Shown here one piece after another: positions 40,254 to 54,476 of a stretch of 64,000 bases of DNA (the first letter of the stretch is position 1; every line of letters begins with the position of its first letter). This DNA comes from Candidatus Gracilibacteria bacterium (GTDB lineage Bacteria; Patescibacteriota; Gracilibacteria; BD1-5; UBA2023), in contig JAQUAB010000002.1 in the NCBI GenBank assembly GCA_028687475.1, positions 1-64,000 on the forward strand. The letters are read 5' to 3'. The position numbers and the translations under genes were made by a program. Under the pieces are notes generated by a model, which saw only the letters and a program-made list of their open reading frames with translations, was not told the origin of the DNA and searched no databases.

Positions 40254-40772
40254 CTAAACCCGAATCTTTGTCACTTTCTCACCGTAGCGTTCATTTTTCT
40301 TGGTGATATTTTTGCTTGTGAGTGCGAATCCGAAGAGTGCCACCCAGAATCCGAAGAATCCAACCCAGAAATCAGTATCGATCACGAATTCTGAAGACGA
40401 ACTTGTTGTTCCGAGATTTGAGAGAGAAATCTCACCAGAAACATTTTGAACAACAGGAGCAACAGTTTTCTCAGTATTCGTCTCGATGAAGAAGAGGGAA
40501 ATAATCATCATAGCAACACCGAGTCCGAATACTATCCATTTCCATACTTTTCGACGCCAGAGTCCTGGATCGAGAATCCCACGAACAAGTCCAACAAGAG
40601 GGAAGAAGTAGAGAATATAGATGAGATATGATGGAATGAAATTGTAATTCCATGTTGTCTTCTGGATTCCGAAGGTAATCACGAGGATGAGCACGAGTGC
40701 GAAAACAATGCGAACAAGACGAATCGTCTTATCAGAAGGTTTTGCTTGGATGGTTTCGATAAGTTTGAACAT
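40254..40772 (-). CDS. Unidentified four-TM membrane protein
   Basis: Encodes 172 residues from ATG 40772; a longer frame to 40826 exists but would run into the RNA terminator region. Helices at about 19-36, 45-64, 77-93 and 136-152; a Ser/Thr-rich external loop lies before the last helix. No TGA. Family unknown. Confidence 0.7.
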   Translation of the reverse strand: MFKLIETIQAKPSDKTIRLVRIVFALVLILVITFGIQKTTWNYNFIPSYLIYILYFFPLVGLVRGILDPGLWRRKVWKWIVFGLGVAMMIISLFFIETNTEKTVAPVVQNVSGEISLSNLGTTSSSSEFVIDTDFWVGFFGFWVALFGFALTSKNITKKNERYGEKVTKIRV

Positions 40773-40825
40773 AGTTGGAAAATAATGAATGCGGAGTGAG
40801 TATAGAGAAAAAAGGGGAGAATTCA

Positions 40826-41083
40826 AGAAAAAATGCCTCGCACTCAGTAGAGGCGGGCATTCAGAGTTTGGCGGAAAGTGGCATCACATGACCAGGGGAG
40901 TATTTCAAGGTCGGCTCCACGGCACCTTGCGATGCTTATTCTCATCCGGACGTTAGCACCCGAGATGAGACATTCTTCATACGAGCTAACTACACCCATA
41001 CGAAGCGGTTCATAGCCTCCGCCCTATCCTACACAGATCACATAAACCTGGGGTTACCAGAATCTTAGTGAGCCACTTTCCTA
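40826..41083 (-). ncRNA. Small RNA with a 23S rRNA domain V (H75-H79/L1-stalk) core
   Basis: On the minus strand two segments match 23S rRNA signatures: GTGTAGGATAG then GGAGGCTATG (41044-41021) and GGAGCCGACCTTGAAATA (40918-40901), followed by CCCCTGGTCATGT. In 23S rRNA they flank the L1 stalk. Here the stalk interval is about 85 nt instead of about 18. A 14-bp closing stem pairs GGAAAGTGGCTCAC (41081-41068) with GTGATGCCACTTTCC (40887-40873). A promoter (TTGACT/TAGAAT, 41115-41089) lies just upstream and a strong terminator just downstream. No other rRNA sequence is in the window. It could be a functional L1-binding RNA or an rRNA-derived relic; the matched signatures rule out a protein gene. 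Confidence 0.6.
40832..40861 (-). terminator. Terminator of the 23S-like small RNA
   Basis: On the minus strand AATGCC-CGC-CTC pairs with GAG-GCG-GGCATT around TACT (12 bp with single-base bulges), followed by TTTTTT. Confidence 0.85.
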
Positions 41084-41088
41084 TCACG

Positions 41089-41115
41089 ATTCTATTTATT
41101 TAGCAAATAAGTCAA
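41089..41115 (-). promoter_or_regulatory. Promoter of the 23S-like small RNA
   Basis: On the minus strand TTGACT (41115-41110), 15-bp spacer, TAGAAT (41094-41089). The expected start near 41083 coincides with the 5' side of the closing stem. Confidence 0.45.
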
Positions 41116-41192: not shown

Positions 41193-43376
41193 ATGGCAAG
41201 AAAGAAAACACAACACCAGAGCTTCATGACTGTAGAGCTCCAGAATATCCTCGCATGAGGAATATTGATCGTTCTCGGAGTCCTCATGTTCCTCTCCACC
41301 AAGGAGACATCTGTTATCGGTCAGTATTTTGCGATTGCTTGAGGCAAGCTTTTCTCCCCAGAATGATATCGTTGGATATTTCCTCCGATTACTGTCGCGC
41401 TCGGAACGATGATTCTCGTGAAAAAGGCTTCTTGGTCTTCGACGCGTTTTATAGGACTTTTTATATATTTCATCGCAACGACTTCTCTAGTCGGACTGTG
41501 GAAAGATAAAACGATAGGTATTTTTGATCTCCATAAGAATATGGTAACATTCCTCGGACAATCTGCTGCAGTACTTACACTCATCGTTCTCTTCTTCGCG
41601 AGCCTCTATATGACACTCCGAATCTCCTATAGAACCATTCTTTCGAAAGTTCGCGATAGGGTACCTTCGCTCTCTACGATGCGAGAAGTAGTACTTCCAA
41701 GTTCCGAGGAAGAAGATGAAGTCCCGAAAAAAGTAAAATGAGATAATCCCTACAAAAAGAAAGCGGAAGAACTCGAGAAAAAACTCGCTGACCTCCACAA
41801 GGCGAAAGAAAAACGCGAAGAAAAAGTACCACTCTCTGGAAAAGCAATTATTTCCAATGCATTTTCTGGACTCACGAAAAAAGTTCCTCTCGAAACCATC
41901 GATGGAAAAGTAATAGAATCCAAAACCCCTGCGAAGGCAGTAGATTTCGGAACGTGGGACTTCCCGAGTGTGAAACTCCTGAATGAGATCGAACACAAAA
42001 ATACCGTCTCACCCGATGAGATCGAAGAGAAATCTATCCTCATCCAGAAGACATTTCTCCAGTTCGGCATCGACGTCGAGATGGAAGAAGAGTGTGTATG
42101 ACCGACAGTGATACAGTACCGTCTCCGTCCATCAGAGTGAGTCCGATTATCGAAAATCGAATCCCTAAAGAAAGACCTTACTCTCGCACTCAAAGCAAAA
42201 TCTATCCGTATCCAAGCACCAATCCCAGGACTTGGACTCGTGGGAATCGAAGTACCGAATGAGAAACGGGATATTGTCGGAATCAAGGAAGTCCTCACAG
42301 ATGATACATTCAGACACCACAAGTCGAAACTCGCGCTCGCAATAGGGAAAGATATCAATGGGGATTTTATTGTCGGGGACCTGGCGAAGATGCCGCACCT
42401 CCTCATCGCGGGTCAGACCGGTTCAGGGAAATCCGTGGGAATGAATGGATTCATCCTCTCGATGCTCTATAAGAACACTCCATCGGAACTCCGTATGATC
42501 ATGGTAGATCCGAAACAAGTCGAGCTCGGTATCTATGATGGTATCCCTCATCTTCTTACACCAGTGATCAATTCGCCAGACAAGGCACTCAATGCGCTCA
42601 AGTGGTGAGTTGCCGAGATGGAACGTCGCTATAGTACGATGAAACCAATGAACGTGCGCAACCTCGAAGAGTATAATGCGAAAGTTGGCAATAAAGATAG
42701 AATGCCAGTTATAGTCATCATTATCGACGAACTCGCTGACCTCATGATGAGCGGGAACAAGAAAGAAGTCGAAGCAGCCATCACACGTATTGCTCAGAAG
42801 GCTCGTGCCGTCGGACTCCATCTCATCCTCGCGACACAGCGTCCATCCGTCGATGTTATCACCGGACTTATCAAGGCGAATGTCCCATCTCGTGTTGCAT
42901 TCACTGTTGCATCCAATATCGACTCTCGCACGATTCTCGATCAGATCGGAGCCGAAGATCTCCTCGGTCGCGGTGATATGCTCTACTTCCCGACCGGTGC
43001 CATGGCAACCACTCGTATCCAATGAGTTCTCGTCGAGACGGATGAGGTCGAACGCGTCGTGAATCATATCAAGCGCACGATCGATCCTGCAATGCTCGAA
43101 GATATTTATGATCACTCTATTATCGAAGGAGATCGTGGGAATTGGGAGGGAAGTGTCGGTGGAGACAATAGTGGAAATAGTAACTTCGAAGAGGATCCAA
43201 AAATCATCGAAGAAGCGATTGAACTCGTACGCAATGCAGGAAAATGTTCTACATCCATGCTCCAGAGACACCTCAAGCTCGGTTATGGCCGAGCTGCTCG
43301 TGTCGTGGATATTCTCGAAAACCTCGGCATTGTCGGACCTGCGGACGGAAGTAAGCCGAGAGAGGTTATAGGATAG
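41193..43376 (+). CDS. ftsK: FtsK/SpoIIIE DNA translocase
   Basis: Encodes 727 residues. Pumps DNA through the division septum. Four N-terminal helices (about 17-160), a charged linker, the beta/alpha motor with Walker A GQTGSGKS (about 407-414), Walker [12 protein letters not shown] and the gamma DNA-recognition wing at the C-terminus ([18 protein letters not shown]). TGA codons encode Gly in several conserved spots, including IQGVLVE after the ATRIQ block. ATG 41187 is an alternative start two codons upstream, but it would precede the likely transcript start. Confidence 0.96.
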
Positions 43377-54401: not shown

Positions 54402-54476
54402 TGGCTGGGATAGTAGGATTCGAACCTACGAATGCCGGATTCAGAGTCCGGAGCCTTACCACTTGGCGATATCCCA
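54402..54476 (-). tRNA. tRNA-Gln, anticodon CUG
   Basis: On the minus strand the acceptor TGGGATA pairs with TATCCCA, the D-arm is GCCAAGTGGTAAGGC, the anticodon arm CCGGA-CTCTGAA-TCCGG puts CTG in the anticodon, and the T-arm is GTAGGTTCGAATCCTAC. Discriminator G and an encoded CCA follow. The TGGGATATCGCC start is typical of tRNA-Gln. This is the only tRNA I find in the window. Confidence 0.95.

Follow-up and report, generated by a model that had tools for sequence, protein, structure and literature searches.

The L1 stalk is a moving arm of the ribosome that ejects used tRNA. Away from the ribosome, the operators of its ligand uL1 on mRNAs take the form of irregular, bulge-containing stem-loops, and CsrB/RsmZ-type decoys are stable RNAs that titrate a protein by imitating its target in repeated short sites. 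The stalk head, H76-H78, is the part of 23S rRNA that binds uL1 (PMC5309774, PMC10931766), and its G2112-A2169 pair stacks on the tRNA elbow (PMC5309774). Further, uL1 binds sites on mRNA that mimic the rRNA, and bacterial L1 regulates even archaeal mRNAs (PMC10931766). The double T-loop of the stalk is shared with RNase P and T-boxes, and further RNAs using this motif have been predicted (PMC4810234). Translation components already recorded in phages include tRNAs and, in rare cases, ribosomal proteins (PMC13157829).

The window, i.e., the whole stretch of 64,000 nucleotides analysed here, is part of contig 2 of a 1.06 Mb genome (G000) in whose genes TGA encodes glycine (code 25), as in Gracilibacteria. 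The initial annotation had placed in it a free-standing unit having the 23S L1 stalk as its core, with a promoter, a closing stem, 23S signatures around an enlarged stalk and a terminator, far from any rRNA gene. All these elements were recovered where it had located them, and the strand, which it had not given, is the minus strand: the gene runs from 41081 to about 40830 (~250 nt). Its features, along with the flanking genes, are as follows:

41193-43376, plus: ftsK, flanking the RNA on one side
41089..41115, minus: candidate promoter, TTGACT (41115-41110), 15-nt spacer, TAGAAT (41094-41089), read from the sequence
40873..41081, minus: 209-nt structured part of the L1-stalk-like RNA (R1 and R2 covariance models; fold; homologue with 14 compensatory pairs)
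41072..41081, minus: 5' strand of the outer closing stem, GGAAAGUGGC (all 10 pairs form both here and in the homologue G002, three of them with double changes)
41036..41045, minus: 5' strand of the GU-rich, H76-like helix, UUAUGUGAUC (partner strand 40893-40884; in register, nine of the first ten pairs form)
41025..41034, minus: double T-loop strand 1, GUGUAGGAUA, E. coli 2110-2119 (G2112 at 41032, U2113 at 41031; invariant in the homologue)
41020..41024, minus: H77, 5' strand GGGCG (4/5 pairs with 40900-40896)
41014..41017, minus: H78 base, 5' strand GGCU (pairs with AGCC at 40916-40913; 3/3 pairs counted)
40920..41008, minus: enlarged outer H78, three helices replacing the usual tip (consensus fold; compensatory pairs in all three)
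40941..40969, minus: tip hairpin with loop CGGGUGCUAACGUCCG (stem with compensatory changes)
40913..40916, minus: H78 base, 3' strand AGCC (consensus fold)
40901..40909, minus: double T-loop strand 2, CUUGAAAUA, E. coli 2165-2173 (A2169 at 40905, A2170 at 40904)
40896..40900, minus: H77, 3' strand CUCCC (structure register count)
40884..40893, minus: H76-like helix, 3' strand GGUCAUGUGA (structure register count)
40873..40882, minus: outer closing stem, 3' strand GCCACUUUCC (structure register count)
~40828..40860, minus: intrinsic terminator, GC-rich 13-bp hairpin followed by T6 (fold prediction)
40799..40826, minus: separate promoter for the membrane-protein gene that lies downstream, TTGAAT-16-TATACT (promoter scan; block kept in relatives lacking the RNA)
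40254-40775, minus: membrane-protein gene, function not assigned, flanking the RNA on the other side

The structured part has a fold z-score of -3.6, with none of 200 shuffles reaching as good a minimum-energy fold. This fold prefers the single 14-bp closing stem originally proposed; the perfect 10-bp outer stem together with the GU-rich 10-bp helix at the H76 position offers an equally good, more ribosome-like alternative to the 14-pair stem, and the strands of these two helices can also pair with one another in other ways. The two double T-loop strands (E. coli numbering counted from A2058) retain G2112-A2169 as well as U2113-A2170; they are the best-conserved strands and represent the tRNA-elbow-binding element, which the initial annotation had missed. 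H77 is maintained by paired changes, appearing as GGGCG/CUCCC in the window, GGCAG/CUGAC in G002 and GGUGG/CCACC in 23S. The stalk is indeed enlarged: the two strands of the H78 base are 101 nt apart, against 31 nt in the 23S of the same genome. The tip loop CGGGTGCTAACGTCCG has 16/16 identity to a hairpin in domain II of gammaproteobacterial 23S (Rfam LSU ~990-1010), a weak match (BLAST E 0.012); the sequence is largely retained in G002 and is not found in the host's own 23S. The tip hairpin is possibly a second rRNA imitation, or the resemblance may be due to chance.

With respect to the boundaries of the unit, the terminator is present as proposed, at ~40860-40828, and was missed by a simple scan because its hairpin has internal mismatches. 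The homologue in G002 (locus L012) has a strong 13-bp terminator at the equivalent place, and terminators end the RNA alike in G000, G002 and the third bacterial genome described below (G181). The promoter fared less well: TTGACT-15-TAGAAT is there, and would start the RNA close to 41081, but its 15-nt spacer is below the optimum and it was not listed by a scan with 16-18 nt spacers. This weak candidate is the weakest point of the case for a transcription unit. The promoter of the homologue, TTGACA-16-TATGAT, is much better.

The kinship with 23S was assessed with a covariance model (R2) of 24 L1 stalks, 23 of which come from genuine 23S. It matches the window at 41040-40896(-) with 48.7 bits (E = 1.8e-8 in 91 kb), which bears out the proposed 23S signatures, and it likewise gives the G002 homologue 48.7 bits (E 1.8e-8). 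The window RNA shares with the 23S L1 stalk (H76-H78, RF02541 ~2130-2210) the double T-loop strands, H77, the H78 base and the H76-like GU-rich helix, whereas it differs in being a separate gene with a terminator and unrelated closing stems and, in G000 and G002, in the 101-nt H78 tip. Its flanks are not 23S, and it neither lies in nor completes a 23S gene. In the Rfam search suggested at the outset, the window copy reached no threshold and the window had no LSU (RF02541) match, while the phage copies L083 and L084 do reach the gathering score. RNase P RNA and T-box stem I carry the same type of tRNA-elbow motif; however, the motif in the window has the sequence and context of the L1 stalk, and neither the RNase P nor the T-box family model matched the region when E values of up to 10 were allowed. 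The sole Rfam match in the window is a tRNA gene at 54405-54476 (-).

The record of the nearest homologue-bearing genome (JACMPW010000015.1) describes a Candidatus Gracilibacteria MAG. The G002 homologue, from another genus, lies at a different locus (L012 1656-1475 (-)), flanked by a transporter gene and by one for a membrane protein (of DedA type in our reading of the sequence), with the next gene convergent. It is 72% identical to the window RNA, and 14 of 53 pairs are changed on both sides between the two. Thus, covariation across relatives, one of the checks originally proposed, turned out positive, and the pairing is under selection. A pattern scan species-wide gave nine matches, of which only the G002 copy is real and one is a mis-scaffolded 23S. 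A model of the two RNAs (R1) matches 75 other genomes of the class, reaching 49 bits (E = 3.6e-11), and of the matches looked at, all but the G181 copy are L1 stalks of 23S genes. R2 also matches twice in two further genomes: in G068 the second match is a full 23S on a 3.2-kb contig, and in G184 the equal-score matches at contig ends are taken as one 23S split by assembly.

The enlarged form is rare (2/353 class genomes), and its site sheds light on its history. The divergent membrane gene/ftsK pair is conserved across the family, and the RNA is absent from this site in two relatives (G014, G004), where the interval spans just 92-95 bp. Three others (G019, G021, G013) have in the same interval a tRNA-Ser, recognised from sequence, accompanied in two of the three by a tRNA-Gly. 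These empty or tRNA-bearing sites, together with the different locus in G002, indicate that acquisition of the RNA, or its relocation, took place within the family. The distribution is patchy, and the sources are metagenome assemblies.

In the class-wide R1 search, the one match outside 23S is at G181:C2:30876-30950 (L059 577-651 (+)). This is an ordinary-sized stalk (R2 74.8 bits) with its own closing helices. A strong terminator comes next, ahead of a tRNA-Pro; no counterpart of the stalk was found in 39 relatives. The bacterial copies thus differ in form, H78 being enlarged in G000 and G002 and ordinary in G181. Just 5' of the latter stalk (L059 475-575 (+)) there is a tRNA-like T-arm and acceptor, GAGAGGTTCGACTCCTCTC, in which ARAGORN calls no tRNA.

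Additionally, scans of IMG/VR uncovered free-standing heads of ordinary size in seven independent viral lineages: L080; L083/L088; L084/L086; L087; L089/L090; L091-L093; and L094. The viral status of L080, L087 and L094 is that assigned by IMG/VR alone, and L091 adjoins a terminase large subunit (phrog_675, E 3e-53). Each copy is closed by a stem of its own and matches 23S over just ~71 nt between new flanks, one flank of L080, which is at a contig start, being short. In L083 and L084, Rfam LSU matches exactly over the stalk (model 2129-2212), with nothing else of 23S nearby. When nine free-standing heads are scored on the stalk structure, 87% of cells are paired against 67% in shuffles and at most 51% in slid controls, and double changes occur in 17 of 24 pairs (7 of 8 in the H76-position stem). 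None of 500 shuffles reaches either the pairing or the double-change value, a test that kinship between rows can inflate; nevertheless, the viral lineages have unrelated flanks and stems. Hence, the proposal of a free-standing unit built on the stalk stands, given that it aligns with 23S, covaries in G002 and recurs in another bacterium and in phages.

Several other matches were set aside. L081, L082 and L085 from IMG/VR were discarded for their real 23S flanks. The matches in isolate phages come from contaminating rRNA or from records that contain 23S, among them Paenibacillus phage Pd_22F, whose match is flanked by 23S. Relaxing the viral patterns brought in no R2-scoring member except the weak L121 (E 0.05). 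Among plasmids, a distant-DNA search with the window RNA gave nothing, and the 395 plasmid records matched by the plain stalk are taken to be 23S genes on replicons.

As to function, we see about an even chance that an autonomous L1-stalk RNA gene specifies a trans-acting trap for stalk ligands, foremost uL1. A short non-coding RNA, presumably transcribed from the candidate promoter, would fold as the head and upper stem of the stalk and capture in trans what the stalk holds, first uL1 and perhaps also tRNA elbows. Capture of uL1 might relieve its autorepression or lower its occupancy on ribosomes, and phage versions could redirect the host's protein during infection. This reading is favoured because the retained segment is precisely the uL1-binding head (H76-H78), and because rRNA-like uL1 operators on mRNA provide a precedent; uL1 genes are present in G000, G002 and G181. 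The predicted action, by titration, would resemble that of CsrB/RsmZ in that a stable RNA imitates a protein target, but with a single copy of a ribosomal domain instead of repeated short sites. On the other side, uL1 operators on mRNA have, to our knowledge, no double T-loop, such that a whole tRNA-elbow platform exceeds the needs of uL1 binding alone. The rebuilt outer H78, the rarity of the RNA (2/353) and the weak window promoter also speak against a uL1 trap.

The main rival, which we consider a good deal less probable, is that the RNA is primarily a tRNA-elbow binder that holds, stores or protects tRNA through the double T-loop, with or without uL1. This would account for the double T-loop strands being the best-conserved part, with G2112-A2169 and U2113-A2170 each kept in 10 of 11 free-standing heads and the second pair covarying perfectly across 24 stalks (9 U-A, 15 C-G), and it would agree with the predicted existence of more RNAs with this motif (PMC4810234). 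The genomic settings point the same way: the window site is the tRNA-Ser/tRNA-Gly site of relatives, L083, L084 and L088 are within arrays of 8 to 11 tRNA genes, and the G181 copy is near a tRNA-Pro. However, such stable-RNA neighbourhoods fit a generic non-coding RNA too, and L089 has lost the canonical 2112/2113 bases. Moreover, the platform also belongs to the head fold that carries uL1, and its retention therefore does not separate elbow binding from uL1 capture.

We regard as improbable a cis-acting leader, in which uL1 bound to the motif would control the next gene downstream. The heads of three viral lineages (L087, L089/L090, L091-L093) lie roughly 25-45 nt 5' of a start codon, so that a cis role is possible there, and rplKA leaders offer a precedent (PMC10931766). 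Against this, the RNAs of the window, G002 and G181 end in a terminator, the next gene in G002 is convergent, and tRNA genes follow L083 and L088. In the window, the downstream membrane-protein gene has its own promoter, and the RNA is thus not simply its leader. While the window RNA is like an rplKA leader in imitating the uL1 site of 23S, it is unlinked to rplK/rplA (rplA is on another contig, at G000:C1:198936), includes the whole head with the tRNA-elbow platform and is a terminated trans-type unit. A search for an L1-like leader 5' of rplA was negative with R2 in G000, G002 and G181, and also with Rfam in G000 and G002. In these last two (L122, L123), rplA has no rplK directly upstream, and its leader shares a GTGGGAG element that matched no Rfam family.

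Still less credible is a neutral piece of rRNA without function, either a relic or an artefact of assembly. The rare and patchy occurrence with empty sites in relatives would be expected of such a fragment, but the compensatory changes contradict the relic option raised in the initial annotation, as does a 72% identical homologue at a different locus in another genus. Nor is there a misassembled operon or a decayed fragment, the 23S being complete elsewhere and the pairing being kept in G002. Phage forms recur in independent assemblies, including L089 and L090, where an identical RNA follows unrelated upstream sequence, and the units end in terminators and comprise the stalk only, with new stems in place of 23S flanks.

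Lastly, a replaceable ribosome part, i.e., an L1 stalk supplied in trans or a split-23S fragment, might be imagined from the near-complete head with its own closing helix but is very unlikely and already disfavoured, as the host 23S is complete including its stalk on another contig (G000:C5:307-3266), the RNA is nearer to the stalks of other bacteria (U2113-A2170) than to that of its host (C-G), and the phages have no other rRNA piece nearby. The complete 23S, which also bears out the claimed distance from rRNA genes, led us to reject a missing piece of a split 23S. A recent copy of the genome's own 23S was likewise rejected, on account of the better match to gammaproteobacterial 23S and the U2113-A2170 pair in place of the host's C-G. 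A second 23S (G000:C4:122781-124784), cut by a contig end, is 87% identical to the complete copy; the divergence may reflect either two rRNA operons or a binning problem.

We think it probable that free-standing L1-stalk RNAs constitute a new RNA gene class, which phages and candidate-phylum bacteria have repeatedly acquired, each independently, and in which an excised ribosomal domain seizes uL1 and/or tRNA elbows in trans. Membership in this class calls for a stalk head outside a 23S gene with its own closing stem, and the window RNA has both. Rfam 15 contains no family for such an RNA, with LSU alone reacting, to the phage copies only. In the open-access PMC literature, with subscription papers and preprints outside this scope, we found neither a free-standing L1-stalk RNA nor a report of a phage or bacterium bearing a working-looking rRNA domain as a gene of its own. 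Leaders already exemplify RNA mimicry of the uL1 site; we know of no earlier case of a stalk encoded as a gene in its own right and occurring in phages as well. These stand-alone copies in a bacterium and unrelated phages point to a kind of RNA not described before, perhaps one that captures L1 or tRNA, and their presence in seven viral lineages and two bacterial types makes the idea testable in several systems. If the RNA does bind uL1 or tRNA, it would represent a new way of tapping the translation machinery, would give structural studies a minimal L1 stalk made by nature, and would open a way to probe what uL1 does outside the ribosome.
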